DNA of 37,751 nucleotides from a virus: positions 1 through 37,751 of IMG/VR virus record IMGVR_UViG_3300007537_000384; one strand, given 5' to 3'. Position numbers and translations under genes: made by a program. The notes beneath the pieces were generated by a model that had not been told where the DNA came from, searched no databases, and saw nothing but the letters and a program-made list of their open reading frames with translations. Shown piece by piece: positions 4,123 to 26,719 of this stretch (its first letter is position 1; every line of letters begins with the position of its first letter).

Positions 4123-4815
4123 TTAGAATGGAAGGTCTTCATCTTCATCACCTTTAGACTTTTTACTTTCCTTCTTTTCTGCTTCTTTAGATTTAGATTC
4201 TGCTTCTTTTTCAAAATCTTCTCATAGACTGTCATCTGCTTCTTCTTTATCTTCTCAATCAAATACATTGTCGTATTTTTCTCTTACCTTTTCTATTTTC
4301 TTTTCTATGATTGGTATAAGAGTATCAATACATTCGTCAGTAGCTTTATCATAGTCTGGTTTTTCCTCTCATTGAACAATCTTTTTTCCTACTAGCTTAC
4401 CTAGTTCGTCCCAAGTTCGGTATCATTCACATCGTGGAGCATTAAAATCATCTTTTTCTTTTATACTTAATGCTCTATAACCTTGTTTGTTTTTATAGAC
4501 ATCAAACACTAAGTAATCAAGAGGACTTTTACCTGCCAGCGTATTCATTACATGCCTTGATAGGCTGTCATAAAGACCAAGCTGCAAAGTAAACTCTCCA
4601 TCATCATCTACAATGTCTATCAAAAGATTTTTTACTGTAACTTTTTTACCTTGACTAGGTCAAGACTTAGGAATGATTTCTTTTGATTCTGTATCAATTC
4701 AAACAATACGTCATCAGATAGTTTTTAATTCTTCTCATTCCATAAAGAATACTGGTCGTTCTTTCTCGTTGTTTCTAATTGAAACATACGTTTTTTGAAT
4801 AGCTTTTTTTCTCAT
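4123..4815 (-). CDS. Single-strand DNA-binding protein analogue
   Basis: 230 aa. No clear classical SSB OB-fold motif is visible, but the layout suits a phage SSB: a beta-rich N-terminal part (YVSIRNNEKERPVFF, IVGIDTES, KVTVKNLLIDIVDDDGEF, DYLVFDVYKNKQGYRALSI), then a flexible charged region from about residue 175 and an acidic tail ending DEDEDLPF. The last four residues are close to the DIPF tip with which bacterial SSBs recruit replication proteins. It sits among exonucleases and next to the recombination genes. It may alternatively belong to another OB-fold phage family; the tail and location support the call. Confidence 0.65.
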
Positions 4816-4841: not shown

Positions 4842-5483
4842 TTAGGTATGATATTTAAGAATTGAGTGTATTTTTCTAGTTGCTGCAACATCTTTTTCAC
4901 AATATTCAACAACCTTTTTTATGTCAAAGTCTTTACTATGATAATATTTTCACATATTTTTACCATCAACATCTCATCATTTAGGAGATTCCATTCACAA
5001 TGCTTCACAAATTAGATTTAAAGAAGCTCACATATATCAAGCAAATTTCCAATCTTCCATTATATCTATAGCAGCAATCTCCCATGGTTTTTTACCAATA
5101 TTATTTATTTGATATGGTATTTTTTTTGACTGTATAACAAATCTTTTACAAAGGAATGGCATATCAAAATTTTTTATATTGAATCATGCCATAGTTATGT
5201 CAGTTCTTTTTCCTATAGTATCATAGAACTCTTCTAACAACTCAGATTCATCATCGTTATGTAGTGTCTTTGTGATAAATTTATCTTTGTGCTGGAAGCA
5301 CATTGTAATACATAGTACCCTTGAATATTCAGCATACAATCCTGCCTTTTCATAATACCATTCAGATGGTTTTACTTCTCAAATGTTTTTGCAATATCTT
5401 TCTTCCCAAATCTTTTTGAGGTTTTTTGGTAGCTTACTCCAAGAATATATTGGAGCAGTTTCTATATCAAAGTATAATATCAT
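4842..5483 (-). CDS. DEDDy-type 3'-5' exonuclease (PolB-exonuclease-like)
   Basis: 213 aa, a stand-alone DnaQ-fold exonuclease. Motif Exo I is LYFDIETAP (Asp6, Glu8), Exo II is AGFNIKNFDMPFL (Asp107), and Exo III is VEYCEKDVAAT with Tyr194 and Asp198, the spacing of the DEDDy class. It resembles the exonuclease part of family B polymerases without any polymerase domain. No DNA polymerase is visible in the window, so this may proofread for the host polymerase or trim ends in recombination (inference). Starts 15 bases after the stop of the PD-(D/E)XK gene. Confidence 0.85.
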
Positions 5484-5498
5484 AATAAATAATTAGGA

Positions 5499-6431
5499 CT
5501 AAAATGAAGGAACAATAAAGTCTTGTTGTAATCAACCTTCTATTTGGTCATAAAATCCAGATTTCATAAGTTTGGTTCTATTGATTGGGTCTCATGCTTC
5601 ATGATGTATTATATCTCAATGCTTACCTTCTGTAGTATACGATATAGGATACACACTTTTCCATTCACATTTTTCATAACATTCGATTAGTGCTTCTAAT
5701 CATGGCACTATTTTTGTTTCAACCTTTTCAATCAATTGTGTTTTTGTTAATTGATATCCATAGTAAGGGTATGGTGGTACTGTTCAAAGAACATCAAGCA
5801 TTACATCACATTCAACTCAATCTCTAACCTTAGCAAGTACAAAGTAATATGCCATAGAGAGAACATAGTCAAATGTAGTATCTAAATTGTATTCGAAATA
5901 ACTCACATTTCCACTGGTTTTCCAATCTCTTATGAGTTTTCTTTCTTTAGAATATCTATCCAATGTTCATTTTAACTTTAAGTTTTTATAATTAACAATA
6001 ACCTCTTCTTGTGTTTGATACTCTCATTTAGCATCTGCTAGTGGCTGTCTCATTACTTCATTGTACATTCAAAGTATTTTCTTTCAGTCTCAATTAGAAA
6101 TAAGTTGTTTATCGTCTCCATAGTAGAGCCCTTCTAGGTCTGCAACTTTTGCTGATTTAGAATATTCAATTCATTTTTCATCTAGCTTTTTCTTTATGTC
6201 ATCCTTTAATAGTTTCTCTTCTTTGATTGCATACTTTTTAAAGAACTCATCAGCACCATAACTCAATAGGTCATCAAAAGCCGTACCAAGTTTGAAATAA
6301 TCTTTTTCTCACTCATGAGTAGAAGGTATTTCTTTTTCGTATTTTAAATAATACGCCTCTGGTCAAAAAGATAAAAAATACTTTAATTTGCTCGCTGTAA
6401 TAAATCAACGATTGTCATCAAGATAGGACAT
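5499..6431 (-). CDS. PD-(D/E)XK exonuclease, RecB/Cas4-like
   Basis: 310 aa. The N-terminal FITASKLKYFLSFGPEAYYLKY is typical of the start of Cas4/RecB-like phage nucleases. KLGTAFDDLL (about 47-56) corresponds to the conserved G-x-x-h/D motif, LKGTLDRY at 153-160 gives Asp158, and KLIRDWKTSG gives Asp169 and Lys171. Together these form a D...DxK two-metal site. Phage enzymes of this type resect double-strand ends or degrade DNA in single-strand annealing recombination; the neighbouring DUF1351-like, SSB-like and exonuclease genes fit that. Twenty or so Gly are TGA. Confidence 0.78.
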
Positions 6432-6454: not shown

Positions 6455-6736
6455 TTATTTAGATTTATTTTTTGTTGCTGTTTTGTTGGTGTTTTTTGTT
6501 TTCTTTTTCTTGCTTACTTGATATCAAGACTTTCACATCTTAAATTCAATTCAATCTGGCATCAAATCATAAACTGCATTTACGACTTTCATTGATGCTT
6601 CATCGTTTCCAGTTTGTATGCTTCATCAAACAGTTCATGCAGGGGTGATAAATAAAACACTTTTTCATTCTTTCTCCACATGCACACTTGATATATTATC
6701 AAGGTTTATAATTCAAAAGTCAGCTTTAACTCGCAT
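6455..6736 (-). CDS. Small protein with basic tail, unknown
   Basis: 93 aa, eight TGA codons. A compact N-terminal part (residues 1-70, hydrophobic alternation around VKADFGIINLDNISSVHVEK and SVLFITPAG) precedes a Lys/Thr/Asn-rich tail from residue 75 that could bind nucleic acid. Not recognised. Its place between the exonuclease and the coiled-coil recombination gene suggests it belongs to the same module. Confidence 0.7.
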
Positions 6737-7930: not shown

Positions 7931-8275
7931 TTAAAGATATGGATTTGGACTGATTCAAGAGCATCCAATTATTTTATTTGTCTCTTGTGATTTTATTTTA
8001 CCAGATACAATATAGAAATCATCTCTTCTCACTGTTTGTGCTACTACCAAGGATACTATATAAATTACTCACTTTTTCTTTGGTGCAAAAAAATCAAGAA
8101 CAGACTCATCTATTTTGTATTTTGTTTCAGTCACTGGTATTCAATCAATAGTTCAAATACTTTCCTTTTGTTGTACCAATTGTAATCTCATTCACATTAA
8201 TGGTTGAATTGTCTTTTTTTCTCAGTCTTTTAAGAATACAGTTATTGGATGTCATGTTAAATTTTTTATCATCAT
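7931..8275 (-). CDS. Conserved phage protein of the NLTPH type, unknown function
   Basis: 114 aa. It fits a widespread family of small phage/bacterial proteins that begin near NLTPHxI and end with VIYIVSLLVAQA, RDD and a RIIG segment: here NLTGHPITVFLKDGEK, GTIDGIPVTETKY, GVIYIVSLVVAQTVRRDDF and TNKIIGCSGIS. The P of TPH is a TGA-Gly here. The function of the family is not established. Two ATG codons are adjacent (8275 and 8272); the upstream one is taken. Confidence 0.72.
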
Positions 8276-8332: not shown

Positions 8333-8707
8333 TTATATATCAATTTCAAGAGATTTTTCATTTATTATGAAGTTGATGTTTTCTTCTCAATAATTTATTG
8401 TAATTTCCGTTCATTTTTTAATTGGCTCTGTTGCCACTATAAGCAATGGTCAAGTTTCTTTTTCTTGATACACCATTGCATTTGGGGTTTTACTGTGATT
8501 TATATATCTTGCGTTTTCATACACTCAAACATATCTTCAATTTATGTAGAATAATTTTGATTTCTCATCAGCAGTAAGACTATCCTCCTCATTGTATTTG
8601 GAAAAATAATAAGAGTTACTTTCAATATATTCTCATACAACATAATCTTTTCAAGCAAACAAAGCGTTTCATTTTTCTTCTGTATAGCGAACTATATTTT
8701 TATTCAT
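8333..8707 (-). CDS. Minimal SET-domain protein, putative lysine methyltransferase
   Basis: 124 aa, almost only the SET fold. GNALFAGKDYVVGEYI (13-28) is the opening strand-turn motif (usual form GxGlFA...I.kGE.I). ARYINHSKTPNA (66-77) holds the NHSxxPN motif that shapes the SAM pocket and pseudoknot. LLIVATEPIKKGTEITINYGE (88-108) ends in the catalytic-type Tyr106 before GE. No pre- or post-SET zinc clusters are present. SET enzymes methylate protein lysines using S-adenosylmethionine; the target is unknown and could be a host or phage DNA-binding protein. It lies directly upstream (in transcription order downstream) of the primase-helicase and a 61-aa protein. Confidence 0.82.
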
Positions 8708-8730: not shown

Positions 8731-8916
8731 CTATTTCTTATTTGATATGTTTGTTGGAGAGTCTACCTTGTTGATAGTTACGGTTGCAACGTTTCAATTT
8801 TTTCTCTCCTCTGCAATCTCTGTGTTGTAGTATCAACCATATTTTTTTCTCAAGCTATCAATTTTTTTTTCGTAATCATCTTTGCTTTTATAAGCAAAAC
8901 TTTCTGTGAAGTACAT
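8731..8916 (-). CDS. Small hypothetical protein
   Basis: 61 aa, charged (SKDDYEKKIDSLRKKYGG, EIAEERKNGNVATVTI), two TGA codons. ATG follows the primase-helicase stop by 23 bases and its stop precedes the SET gene by 23 bases. Not recognised; likely soluble. Confidence 0.6.
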
Positions 8917-8939: not shown

Positions 8940-10937
8940 TTAAATAGAATTAAATCATTCATTTGCCCTCCTTTGTGTTTCTGAAACAGAGAATCAAAAC
9001 TCTCAAGTATTTTTATCAAACTCACTTGCAAATCTTCTATCTCAATATATCCTTCATCTAAGTTTAGTTATATGAAATATAGTCATATCCTCTATATCTC
9101 TAGTTATTTGGATTATAATGTTTGAAACTTGTTTTATCGCAGCTCAATCCTTAAATCGAGATGGACTTGGTATATCATCATTACCTTTATTTCCTTGATT
9201 AGTCCAGTTTCTATAATGAGCAACTAGAAATATCGCTACATTTCTTTTTCTTCATATCTCGTTTATTTGGTGCATCGCATTTTGTATTTGCAAATCGTGT
9301 CTTTCCTTATCGTTCATATGGAAGTAATGCAAGTGGTCTATAACAAACATATCTGCTCAATTATCGCAAGCCCTCTCCATTAACTCAATAAGATTATCTA
9401 TGGTCACCGATTTCTTTTTCTCAAGCTCTGTTACTTCTAGCTTTTGCAATATCTCTTTTGCCCTTCTCATATATGTCCAAAACGCATCATCATTATACTC
9501 GTTGTTTACAAATTTTACCCAAGAATAAGACCTATAATTATCAGCCTTTCTCAATATGTTTACCATATCGTATAACTCCTCTTTTCATTGGTCTTCTATT
9601 CTATCTTCCAAAGAATATCTTATAACATTTCGTCATTGCTTTGCCACATTACTAACAACTGCATTTACAAATGTAGTTTTTCCACATCATGTTTCTGCTC
9701 AAACGGTATATATCTTTCCCTTGTATATTCATCAGAGTGTTTCATCTCGTTCATCCCATCATCGCTTTATAATTTTTTTTGGGTCTGTTTTCTTTATCTC
9801 TTCAAATGCCCTATCAAGTTTATCTTTGTATGATATATGCAAAAAATTTTCTTCAACTTCTTTTTTCGCTATTTCTTTTTTTTCTTTCTGTTTTTTTTCT
9901 TCAAGGTCGTCAAAGTGTATTCAATGTTTTTCTTTAAAATATTCTATTGTCTTCTTTTTATCTTGTCATGCAACCTCATAATAGATTATTTCATAAGGAG
10001 TGAAATAACTTTTATCTGTTTTGATTAGTGAGCTTCAAGTGTTTACAATTATATTGTTTGGCTTCCATCGGTATGCCCCCATATTTTTGTGTCATTCGTG
10101 GAGAGCTGTATTATCTAGTCATTTATCAACAGTCCTAACATCTCGAACCTCTTCTGCTATTATATTTGCTGGTATGCTGTTTATCGCTTCCCAAACACCA
10201 CTTGTTTTTTCATAATCTTTTTTGTAATCTTTTTTTATAATTTCTTTAACTTTTTTTCTATCGTTTTTTTCTTTCTCAATTTCTTTTTTATTTTTTTCTG
10301 CGTATTTTTCTATAGCTGAGAACACCTTTGATTTTTTTTCTTCAAAATAGAGCATCTTACATTCAATTGGTCATAAGTCCCATAAGACCTTTTTCTTTCT
10401 TATTTTTTTTCTAGGGTTCATACTTCATGGCATTCTAGTTATCCTTGATATGTTTTTGCAAGCGTGGTCTGTTGCATATCATGTGGAAGCAATTAAGGCA
10501 TCTATTTTTTTGAATATGTATTCAATTCATAATGAATAAGACTCCTTATCAAAACTCCTCTCCTCTCAAGCGTAATACACATGCAATCAGTTTCAACTGT
10601 CAACTAAAGCACAATAATCTCAAAGTCAATTCTTATCTAATATTTCAACTATCTCTGCATATTTTTCTTGTAACTCGGATTGGTCTAACACTATAGGTTC
10701 TACCTCCTCTGTCATCTCATAATGCATGAGCCTAACATCAATATCGACACAAAAATATTTTTTCTTTGCGATGTCATCATCAGAACACCTATCATCAATT
10801 CATTTCTTTACTCATCAACAAAAATAAATATTGTTTTTTCCTTTAGATTTTTCGTAACTTACAAGGCTTCTTAAATTATTTATTTCTAGTCATTCACTGC
10901 CTTGTAGGAACTCTAAGAATTTTTTATTTTCATCCAT
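8940..10937 (-). CDS. Fused AEP primase and DnaB-like helicase
   Basis: 665 aa. N-terminal archaeo-eukaryotic primase (AEP/PrimPol-type) domain: YFCVDIDVRL with metal ligands Asp65 and Asp67, LVDSGNGLHVYY at 111-122, and ISRITRMPGSMNPRKK at 163-178, the R-x-PG-x-N-x-K signature. A linker with Lys/Glu coils covers about 200-385. The C-terminal RecA-fold helicase has Walker A GAETGCGKTT (Lys420), Walker B MFVIDHLHYF (Asp534), a sensor strand VAIFLVAHYR and SRFKDGAAIKQVSNIIIQITRD. It would unwind and prime the fork in one polypeptide. Both active sites include TGA-Gly. The ATG at 10937 overlaps no gene; the preceding stop is 29 bases upstream. Confidence 0.88.
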
Positions 10938-10966: not shown

Positions 10967-11800
10967 TTATCGGTTTTTTGCTAGACGGTTTCTTAGCGTA
11001 GACTTTCGGTCTTTTTGTTCAACGACTCAAGTAAGAACTTGTGCTTTCCAATACTTTTCAAATTCATCAAGTAGTGGCTTTAAGTTTTTATCCTTGTGTG
11101 TCCTTTCTGTTGCTATCAACACAGTATCAAACCACTTAATAAATTTTTCTGGAGTCTCTGTTTTAGCTGGTATCCATCACAGTCTCAAGAAAACTCACAT
11201 CACATATGCACTTGCTTTGTCTGGATTGTTTTTTGCGTAATCACTCATAATACCTATGGTTTCTTGGTTTTTGTCGGCGTCGCCCAATCTATTTTGTTTT
11301 TTTTCTTCTGCATTTCAAGAGGAATTTTTTTTTAGAGCGGGATTTTTCTTTTTTTTCTTTTCTTTTTCATTCTTGTCATTCTTGTTAATGGGTGTAACCT
11401 TCGTAAAGTTTTCATTGGAGTTTTCATTGGAGTTTTCATTGGAGTTTTCATAGTTGTCCAATGATTGGTATTTGTCGTAGTTAACTACTGTTACTAAAAT
11501 TCAGCGTGGAGTTTTCGTTGTCGTTATCATTAGAGCTTTCATAAGTTGCTTCATAAGAGTCTTCGTGTAGTGGGTATTATATGTCTTTGTTCTATAGCCT
11601 ATTTTGTAGGTAAGTTGCTGTTTTAAATCAGAATGAGTGACAAAACATTGTCATCTTTTTATAATATATTCTCAATATTTTTTTCATTTATGATTTGCTT
11701 TTCAACATAAATAAATTCGTATCTTTAAAAGCTCTGGAGATTTAGTCCATACCTCGCTTTCAAAAATTGTACGTGAAATAATAAATCATCATTTGTTCAT
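10967..11800 (-). CDS. Replisome organiser-like replication protein
   Basis: 277 aa. The N-terminal 120 residues follow the pattern of phage replication initiators with a winged helix: GGFIISRTIFESEVWTKSPELL, IYLCGKANHKG, IIKRGQCFVTHSDLKQQL, then YTKTLMKQLMKAL and GILVTVVNYDKYQ. A hydrophilic linker contains a triple NSNE-type repeat (12-base unit repeated three times at 11411-11448) and a Lys-rich run. The C-terminal part (SDYAKNNPDKASAYVMGVFLRLGWIP) resembles a DnaD-like or helicase-contact domain. Directly precedes the primase-helicase, as expected for an origin-binding or helicase-loading protein. Confidence 0.68.
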
Positions 11801-14429: not shown

Positions 14430-14633
14430 TTATATCTTTATATTATCAAGTAAAAATTCATTAAGTTTTCAAAGTCATTCAAAAAATAGTACATCATAAT
14501 CTTTGACATTTTTTTTCTCATATAATTTATTTGCATAATCCCAAACCATTTCTTCTTTATCAAAAATTTCTTTTGTGAATATAGCTACAACCTGCATTTG
14601 GTCTTTGCTTCTTTCTATAATTATTGAATACAT
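14430..14633 (-). CDS. Small hypothetical protein
   Basis: 67 aa: a beta start (MYSIIIERSKDQMQVVAIFT) followed by helices (FDKEEMVWDYANKLYEKKN) and DVLFFEGLGKLNEFLLDNIKI. Looks like a small alpha/beta fold. Stop and next ATG are 2 bases apart. Not recognised. Confidence 0.6.
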
Positions 14634-14693
14634 ATTACATAAATTTTATAAATTAAAATTTTTTTTATTTTTATTTTTAAATATTTTAAAGTA

Positions 14694-18427: not shown

Positions 18428-18534
18428 TTTTATAATATTTTTAGAATTTAAAAGATTTTTGATTGTTTATCTTATTTTTTTATATTTTGCTTTTTTGTTT
18501 ATGTTTGCCTTTTCTTTTGTGTTGTATCTATAAT

Positions 18535-18599
18535 ATACAAAATATACAAAAATACAAGAAAAAATACAAATAAATACAAACATATATATATAAATACAA
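18535..18599. repeat. Array of six ATACAA motifs
   Basis: ATACAA begins at 18535, 18544, 18552, 18564, 18574 and 18594, an iteron-like cluster just upstream of ardC. The complement, TTGTAT, also makes up candidate leftward promoter sequence (TTGTAT, 16 bases, TATTAT near 18530-18557). May bind an initiator or repressor; AT-rich composition alone could yield part of it. Confidence 0.5.
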
Positions 18600-18674
18600 A
18601 ACAATATAAAGCAATCAAACATCAGTTAACAAGTAACAAATAAGAAATCACAAATAAACACAAAAAACAAGGAC

Positions 18675-18702
18675 TTGACAATATCAAAAAAGTATTCATA
18701 AT
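18675..18702 (+). promoter_or_regulatory. Rightward sigma70-type promoter
   Basis: TTGACA (consensus -35), 16-base spacer, CATAAT (five of six of -10). It reads into the G-poor untranslated stretch and then toward the late operon, giving a long leader of about 0.95 kb before the first plausible gene at 19663. Confidence 0.6.
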
Positions 18703-18780
18703 GACATAGAATTCTATTATATAAAAGTATAAAAAAGAAAAACAAAAAAACAGGATAAAATATTGTAATGCATCACAAAG

Positions 18781-18960
18781 CAAAAGCACAAAAAACGCTT
18801 AAACAAAACGCCAACCAAACCAACAAAACAAAACAAATACATAACAATAAAACAATAAACTAAACAGTAAAACAATATGATATACAAAGACTTGTTTTTG
18901 TTTGACTGCAAAAGCTAAACACAAAAAAACGCTTAAACAATCCACCAACCCAACCAACCA
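18781..18960. repeat. Imperfect direct repeat with CCAACC motifs
   Basis: 18781-18824 and 18909-18960 share CAAAAGC, then ACAAAAAACGCTTAAACAA, then a cytosine-rich CCAACC-type tail. A third CCAACCC-AAACCAAC copy lies at 19422-19436. On the minus strand the tails read GGTTGGTTGGGTTGGTGG, a run of two-G tracts able in principle to form a two-tier quadruplex. Confidence 0.6.
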
Positions 18961-19081
18961 ATATACTATGCTATTATAATTATATACTATATAACAAAAT
19001 CATTAAATCCCAATGTTGATTTTGGCTGCTATATAGTTGTACGCATATATAAAAAAAATAGTTGTGTACTGCGTTTATGTT

Positions 19082-19109
19082 ACTTTGCACAAGACTTATT
19101 GTGCAAAGT
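19082..19109. terminator. Perfect 11-bp hairpin
   Basis: ACTTTGCACAA, loop GACTTA, then TTGTGCAAAGT. It is followed on the plus strand by GCTTTTAG, a weak T-run, so it could terminate or attenuate the transcript from the promoter at 18675, or be an origin hairpin or protein-binding palindrome. Confidence 0.5.
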
Positions 19110-19662
19110 GCTTTTAGTTTTGTCAGTTCAAAACTACAATTTGAAAATAGCACAAAACAAAAAAGCACAATACAAAACAGTCAAAAAATCCGAATAAATA
19201 AAAAAAATAGTATCTTGGAAGTATCAAAAAATAATCCAAAATAAATAGAAACAGTCCAAAACATACTTAAAAAGCACAATATAAAGACATAAAAGGATAT
19301 TGAATATTGAAGCAATAATATAGTAGAGGGATACTGTAAGATATAGGGCTTTGATTGCATAGGGCTGAAAAAGTTCAGAAAACACGCCCCCATATGCCAC
19401 ATATACATGCTGATATTCACTCCAACCCAAACCAACTTCTAGCTATATATAAAACTAATAATAAGTCAATTATTCAGTCCAAAACAGGCAAAACACCCAT
19501 AGGGGGTTGTTATATATAGGATTGAAATGATAAAAATATAGCATCTCAAAAAAAATTTTGGGACACAATTTACAGACATTGACATTTCAAATAAAATAGT
19601 ATGGAATATATCTTTTGTCAAGGAAATAGAATGGCCAGATAGGTAACAGCTTGGAAAACTAT

Positions 19663-19899
19663 ATGTTACAAAAATCATTCCTACTCGATAAAAAACGGAT
19701 AAAAAAATCAATCATCATTGACATTTTAACAAAAAGAACACAGTTCTCATCGTTACAAATATTACTAAAAAAAGGGTGGTGTTTGTATAGATATATATGA
19801 CACAAAAAAAGACTTGCAATTGAAAGGAGAAATAATAAACCAATGATAATGGTATGTAGTAATCTGCTTTACTCTATAAAAATTTTAAATGTGTGATAA
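19663..19899 (+). CDS. Possible small basic protein, first of late unit
   Basis: 78 aa when two TGA are read as Gly: MLQKSFLLDKKRIKKSIIID, KRTQFSSLQILLKKGWCLYR, ending LLYSIKILNVG. Very Lys/Arg-rich. The stop overlaps the ATG of the next frame by 11 bases, which favours a real coupled pair. No family seen; it could be a DNA-binding protein. The composition is less typical than other genes, so it remains tentative. Confidence 0.4.
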
Positions 19900-20134
19900 A
19901 TCCACAATTTCTTTATTAGAGAAAAAGGTATGCAGGCTACAGGTTAGAAATAGGAACTTAAAAAAGAAGACTGAGAAGAAATATAGTCATTTATTCATAT
20001 GTAAGAAAATACAGGAGAGTGTATTGAAATTTATGGAGAAAAGTTGAAAGGAGAGGTGCACGAAGGATATTTCGTTGTATGAGTATTGGTCTTTTATTGC
20101 TCAATGTATTGAGGAGGAGGAGATAATAGAGTAG
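19889..20134 (+). CDS. Possible small protein upstream of terminase genes
   Basis: 81 aa, one TGA-Gly: STISLLEKKVCRLQVRNRNL, a basic helix, IQESVLKFMEKSGKERCTKD and an acidic end (ECIEEEEIIE-like). Starts inside the end of the preceding frame and stops 24 bases before the next gene. Position could suit a small terminase or regulator, but no motif confirms it. Confidence 0.42.
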
Positions 20135-20158
20135 TTTTTTATATTCTTATATATTATT

Positions 20159-25570: not shown

Positions 25571-26719
25571 ATGGATAAAATCTTAGAGCAAATGAAACAA
25601 CTCAAAGAAATAGGAGGAGTTGACGCTAACAAAATCGAAGCTCAAGTCAATGAGTATAAAGACGAGCTTGCAAAAAAACAAGAAAACGCAAATGAAGTAG
25701 TGCATACTACTAACACAGGATTCGGTAAAGAACTAATTCCTGAAGATTTACTAACTGCACAAGTATTGGATATCGTTCCTGAATATACTCAATTCTTGTC
25801 TACTTTACCATGATATCATGGTGCTAATATGGGTAAATCAGAAAGTGTACCTATTATCGGAGAAGTAGATTACGCTGTTGGTCTTTCAGAAAGAACTTCT
25901 AATGCTTTGAGTCATACTCAAGCAAACAGAAAACTTCCTACTGCTAAAGTAACAATCAATCAAAAAACTCTATACATGAGAATTGATTTCTCTAGACAAG
26001 AGTTATTGTACTCTATTGCAGACTTGGAAAGTCTTACAAAGACAAAAATCGCTAAATCTATAGCTAAAACAACTGAATCAGCTGTTCTTAATGCTGATGA
26101 TGTTGATACTGTTACTGGTAACATCAATTGTGATGACGCTCAACCTTCTGTGACATTCCCTGACGGTGATGATGACCACAGAATGATTTACGCAGACTCT
26201 TTGAGAAAGACAATGCTAAATGGAACTGTTGATGTTGATTATAAAGACATTGGAGCTCTATCTTGGGAGAATCTTATTCAAACTAGGTCTCTTCTTGGTG
26301 ATTGGTCTTTTGATTTGGATGATGTATTGCTTCTTATGAACGGTGCAACATACAACAAAGCTATCACATTGACTGAGTTTGCTGATGCTTCTAAAAACGG
26401 AAAAGAATCTACTGTTGTTAAAGGAGCAATCACAAACATCTCTGGAAACGACCTTTTCGTTCCTAGGTCTTACCCTAAAACAGAGGCAGATGGTAAAGTT
26501 TCTGCTACTGGGTCAAATAACACTAAAGGAGGATTCATTTATATGAAAAAGCAAGCTGTTCAATACGGATATGGTTCAATTTTGGATATGGAAGTATACA
26601 AAATCGTTGGACAAGGTATCTCTGTTGTAGCTGCTATTGATTTTGGTTTTGCTATCGTTAATAAGAAAGCAGGAACAAATGACCCTCGAATTGTAGGTGG
26701 AATTAATGTAACTTTATAG
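25571..26719 (+). CDS. Major capsid protein, HK97 fold
   Basis: 382 aa. A helical N-terminal delta-like region (1-45, MDKILEQMKQLKEIGGVDAN, ELAKKQENANEVVH) precedes the shell: LIPEDLLTAQVLDIVPEYTQ, VPIIGEVDYAVGLSERTSN, LYMRIDFSRQELLYSIADLE, IARSI-like KIAKSIAKTTESAV, WENLIQTRSLLGDWSFDLDD (P-domain helix) and a C-terminal beta part ending VGGINVTL. The only TGA is Gly81; the other 29 or so Gly use GGA/GGT, unlike neighbours. A strong terminator follows. Position after the protease and before the connectors fits. Confidence 0.88.

Follow-up and report, generated by a model that had tools for sequence, protein, structure and literature searches.

A divergent stand-alone SET-domain protein encoded in the replication module of a phage that reads TGA as glycine

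Compact SET-domain proteins that act on DNA-packaging proteins have two precedents: the Chlorella-virus enzyme vSET of PBCV-1 (A612L; PDB 1n3j, 3kma), which methylates histone H3K27 and represses host transcription (PMC3089700), and the archaeal Go1-SET of Methanosarcina mazei, which methylates the DNA-binding protein MC1-alpha in vitro (PMC3980110). SET proteins have also been recorded in phages: ORF62 of Stenotrophomonas phage Ps15 is annotated as one (PMC9025141), a 735-kb phage (LR756501) carries another, and several BFVD entries are titled 'SET domain containing protein [uncultured Caudovirales phage]'. Our literature searches on the function of phage SET proteins returned an annotation mention only. 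Phage protein-lysine methylation has thus been little studied, yet SET genes are common in phage contigs and in bacteria of the Candidate Phyla Radiation (CPR). The protein analysed here is a divergent addition to this already known, functionally little-studied class, and its unusual features are a code-25 setting and a GxA sequence in the SAM loop.

The window, by which we mean the whole stretch of DNA analysed, is the 37,751-nt (37.7 kb) virus record IMGVR_UViG_3300007537_000384. It consists of two divergent gene modules parting at about 18.4-20.2 kb, the left one transcribed leftward and the right one structural, with a terminase, HK97-type portal and capsid homologues, and tape-measure-sized and tail genes. 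Frames of the window stay open only with TGA as a sense codon, and those of at least 100 aa span 88% of it in code 25 versus 27% in code 11. Because TGA codons are found at glycines of the terminase Walker-A stretch GYGGAAGGGKS and at conserved glycines of the SET protein, and never at the tryptophans of its relatives, the genetic code of the window is code 25 (TGA = Gly). Absconditabacteria, Gracilibacteria and some of their phages use this code (PMC10746230), and the record therefore probably belongs to a tailed phage of an Absconditabacteria or Gracilibacteria host within the CPR, a host assignment drawn from the code only. Terminase, helicase and RecE-like queries recovered no relatives from IMG/VR, and the capsid query found no match in genomes. 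In IMG/VR the capsid query recovered five related phage fragments. No SET gene was found in them, but as all five cover the structural half only, this has no bearing on whether those phages carry one.

The SET gene occupies positions 8333..8707 and runs along the minus strand from 8707 to 8333; in code 25 it encodes a protein of 124 aa, closed by a TAA stop. The preliminary description of this DNA had placed a 124-residue SET protein here, which our analysis confirms, but on the minus strand and with TGA read as glycine only. Plus-strand and code-11 readings of the interval yield no protein, and under code 11 the gene contains eight in-frame TGA codons. Four of these eight fall at columns occupied by glycine in the relatives (94/98, 77/98, 89/98 and 50/98 sequences, respectively), and none at a tryptophan column. 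When compared with SET families by HMM, as had been proposed, the protein matched Pfam SET (PF00856) with 47.9 bits (E 1.9e-12), over the curated cut-off of 22.4. An HMM made from 98 SET relatives, with the window protein left out, gave 80.7 bits (E 1.2e-24) for the code-25 reading and no SET match for the code-11 reading of the locus. Reading TGA as tryptophan lowered this score to 55.3 bits and put tryptophan at conserved glycines, and was rejected. It is to be noted that readthrough of TGA extends many frames in AT-rich DNA, and 8333-8707 could in principle be no gene but a frame opened by the recoding in which a motif arose by chance. However, the high score comes from a model that does not contain the window protein, it decreases when TGA is read as tryptophan, the TGA codons sit at conserved glycines and a SET fold is predicted. 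The leave-one-out and TGA-position results rule out a chance frame, to which we attach a negligible probability, and 8333-8707 encodes a true SET domain. The second-best open reading frame of the window in the SET HMM search, a small one at 14433-14645, reached 13 bits (E ~1e-3, filters off), probably by chance.

The motifs of the domain were mapped from the translation and from conservation. The SAM/active-site pseudoknot motif NHSxxPN, reported in the preliminary description, is found as NHSKTPN at residues 70-76 (8480..8500, minus strand), and the closing Tyr-Gly-Glu, likewise reported, corresponds to residues 106-108 (8384..8392, minus strand), Tyr106 being the catalytic tyrosine of SET-C. 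The opening motif stood in part: GNALFA is present at residues 13-18 (8654..8671, minus strand), but the conserved form of this SET-N SAM-loop motif is GxGxFA, and its second glycine is Ala15 here. The loop thus reads Gly13-Asn14-Ala15 instead of the canonical GxG, whereas 96/98 relatives have glycine at position 15 and the two that do not are both divergent. Membership in the SET family holds despite this GNA loop, since GxG is unnecessary for the profile or the fold match. The catalytic residues Asn70, His71 and Tyr106 are retained together with Ser72, Pro75, Asn76 and Glu101; the relatives keep the catalytic Asn in 97/98, His in 96/98 and Tyr in 98/98 cases, and each of N70, H71, E101 and Y106 is conserved in 96-98 of the 98. 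The protein contains no cysteine and therefore has no zinc-binding pre-SET or post-SET part, which bears out the earlier view of a SET core lacking both.

An AF2 model built from 18 aligned sequences (phage and window) reached a pLDDT of 77.4 and a pTM of 0.71; the single-sequence model was poor (pLDDT 47), and the good model draws on the rows of the relatives. Its best fold matches were vSET and Schizosaccharomyces pombe Set7. Foldseek aligned it to vSET (3kma) with an E-value of 4.7e-8, and VIA gave a Z of 13.2 and an rmsd of 2.4 over 103 residues at 28% identity for vSET, and a Z of 13.7 over 115 residues for Set7 (5h6z). A SET fold is thus predicted, and Asn, His and Tyr are not lost in the relatives, the two points on which the preliminary description had let its reading depend. 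vSET is also the closest solved viral relative by sequence and fold: like the window protein, it is a viral SET core (119 aa) without pre-SET, and the two share NHS, YG and the overall architecture. They differ in that vSET acts on histone H3K27 and has an intact GxG, whereas the window protein has GNA and belongs to a phage of a bacterium.

Both the predicted SET fold and the catalytic residues that have been kept point to a SAM-dependent lysine methyltransferase. The presence of Ala15 in place of a near-invariant glycine lowers this claim, and we consider catalytic activity probable rather than assured. The same substitution, together with a long terminal branch in the tree (1.96 changes per column, where the median is 0.36) and a best PDB sequence match to KMT2E/MLL5, whose SET domain is generally considered inactive, would fit a pseudoenzyme, in which SAM turnover was lost or weakened by the GxG-to-GxA change and the SET fold was left with a role in binding peptides or proteins. 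On the other hand, alanine is the smallest alternative side chain to glycine, and Asn70, His71, Ser72, Asn76, Glu101, Tyr106 and the full domain length have all been kept, so that we regard a pseudoenzyme as unlikely, if the most serious competitor of an active methyltransferase. If active, the protein would be a small and tractable enzyme for asking which proteins phage SETs modify.

SET proteins proved to be widespread among phages. IMG/VR was searched with alignments as queries, every locus being re-detected by profile, and 103 loci with SET domains were collected (25, then 78 more); the window protein used alone as a query recovered no close relatives there. Many of these loci encode stand-alone proteins of 116-138 aa, and others carry a C-terminal SET in proteins of about 250-350 aa. 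Furthermore, 45 loci were found in cellular genomes, many of them CPR but including diverse bacteria and archaea, among them Methanosarcina and Methanomicrobia (L051, L046), and in a sample of 379 genomes from the phylum to which one CPR genome belongs, 70 contained a SET protein over the cut-off. These numbers contradict the earlier statement that eukaryotes and chromatin-modifying bacteria are the main sources of SET enzymes. Within the sampled CPR phylum, a pattern search found no code-25 genome, and for none of the 78 later-added IMG/VR loci was code 25 a better fit than code 11. As eight in-frame TGA codons break the gene, SET genes of this kind are missed under standard-code annotation of code-25 phages.

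By its size and by the terminase, portal and capsid genes in the same record, the window protein fits a stand-alone tailed-phage SET class of about 115-140 aa. It has the same SET core as the stand-alone phage proteins of 116-138 aa (L020-L041, LR756501, phrog_28741/34170), which differ from it by their standard code, intact GxG and 24-30% identity; Ps15 ORF62 is placed with them by its SET annotation. Go1-SET is likewise a prokaryotic compact SET, but a cellular one, with MC1-alpha as its assayed substrate. CPR SETs (Kaiserbacteria, Nomurabacteria) share with the window protein the ARYINHS..PN motif and 30-38% identity, whereas they are host genes of about 130-200 aa, some with C-terminal cysteines. 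Most phage SETs read xSLYNHS at this place, and in the alignment the ARYINHS of the window is closer to CPR SETs than to most phage SETs; R67 occurs in 44/98 rows overall versus 3/20 phage rows. In the tree, the window protein forms a long branch outside any supported group. Measured by path, the rows closest to it are those of CPR proteins, which are oversampled in the tree, and grouping it with the main phage clade was not rejected (p-AU 0.73). In a quick tree of few columns, phage SETs cannot be accounted for with fewer than three label changes on starred branches, which is consistent with repeated acquisition of SET genes by phages.

The SET gene is part of a leftward replication/recombination operon, in agreement with the phage replication module recognised in the preliminary description. 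All genes given here lie on the minus strand. Directly upstream is a 61-aa open reading frame (8731..8916) that matched no family in our searches, followed by a DnaB-type primase-helicase as the second upstream gene (8940..10937; Pfam DnaB_C 1.1e-13, phrog_239 5.3e-27) and a DnaD-like helicase loader (10967..11800; phrog_2514 1.6e-17). The gene directly downstream (7931..8275) belongs to phrog_30542 and matches PADLOC Unk_01 (E 2e-12), described as a small protein without assigned role that is sometimes fused to CARF. Also downstream are a charged 383-aa protein and, by profile matches, a RecE/exonuclease VIII-like PDDEXK nuclease (5499..6431) and a 3'-5' exonuclease (4842..5483). Another downstream gene, at 4123-4815, encodes a protein ending in the acidic tail DEDEDLPF, which looks SSB-like by eye and has no family match. 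The position of the SET gene in this module suggests that it is expressed early. Three genes downstream of it, a 93-aa protein of no family (6455..6736) ends in a Lys-rich, histone-tail-like C-terminus, KKKKTKNTNKTATKNKSK; as a speculation from its sequence, this protein might be a substrate of the SET protein within the operon.

Several unrelated SET genes of other phages likewise adjoin recombination or replication genes, encoding SbcD/SbcC (L122, L182), a phrog_62 helicase (L023 group) or a ligase (L142); in L122 (4943-8219) the SET gene is flanked by SbcD-like and SbcC-like recombination endonuclease genes. We found no neighbour gene common to all phage SET lineages and, genes of DNA metabolism being common in phages, this context is weak evidence that gives the substrate class a lean only.

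We therefore propose, with about even confidence, an early-expressed, stand-alone SAM-dependent protein-lysine methyltransferase acting most plausibly on a DNA-associated protein. Lysine would be the methylated residue, and a DNA-associated substrate, taken on its own, is a tentative assignment. The core SET fold, without pre-SET or post-SET, would bind SAM through the GxA/NHS/Tyr pocket, and the target lysine would enter from the opposite side to receive methyl groups. Made together with the replication proteins, the enzyme may methylate a phage replication or recombination protein, or a host nucleoid protein, and so tune DNA binding.

The likeness to vSET also bears on a possible host takeover, in which methylation of a host nucleoid or transcription protein would bring about the repression of host genes, after the manner of vSET with algal H3. 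vSET, the closest solved viral relative, raises host H3K27 methylation and host transcription falls (PMC3089700). However, the likeness is at the level of the fold, with 28% sequence identity, and no bacterial substrate is known. The probable bacterial host is not known to have a histone H3, and we judge takeover of this kind to be rather improbable. A role against host defence, raised in the preliminary description and in which the SET protein would methylate a defence protein, could be suspected from the ArdC-type anti-restriction protein of this phage and from the occasional CARF fusions in the family of the downstream neighbour. The ArdC gene lies about 9 kb from the SET gene, however, PADLOC profiles did not match the SET protein at E 0.01, and phrog_30542 is a phage family of no established anti-defence role. 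Nothing specific favours this explanation, which appears very improbable. Beyond the window, the preferred reading of a lysine methyltransferase could be generalised: compact phage SETs would be widespread replication-linked enzymes acting on DNA-processing proteins, of which the window protein, perhaps acquired from a CPR host, would be a divergent representative with a changed SAM loop. To this broader picture we give a low probability.

Several minor observations were made along with these results. The ArdC-type protein at 17603-18427 matches ArdcN (8.8e-13) and a zincin metallopeptidase profile (4.9e-20). Among the phage loci L124-L197 (e.g. L163, 5470-6171), many proteins of about 300 aa combine a C-terminal SET (phrog_34170) with a tail-fibre-like N-terminal match, and in L163 the gene adjoins that of a DNA-ejection protein. 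In large phages, a gene with an Fe/Mn superoxide dismutase domain is located near SET (L031, 8197-9732; Sod_Fe_C 1.4e-39), as is also the case in L002 and in the syntenic loci L022-L033 and L040. In the window itself, there is one TGA glycine in the capsid gene (25571-26719) versus 33 in the primase-helicase gene, a difference that may reflect avoidance of the recoded codon where expression is high. Finally, the two divergent modules are separated by about 1.7 kb (18428-20158) without a convincing gene, where the sign of the GC skew flips, a possible control or origin region.
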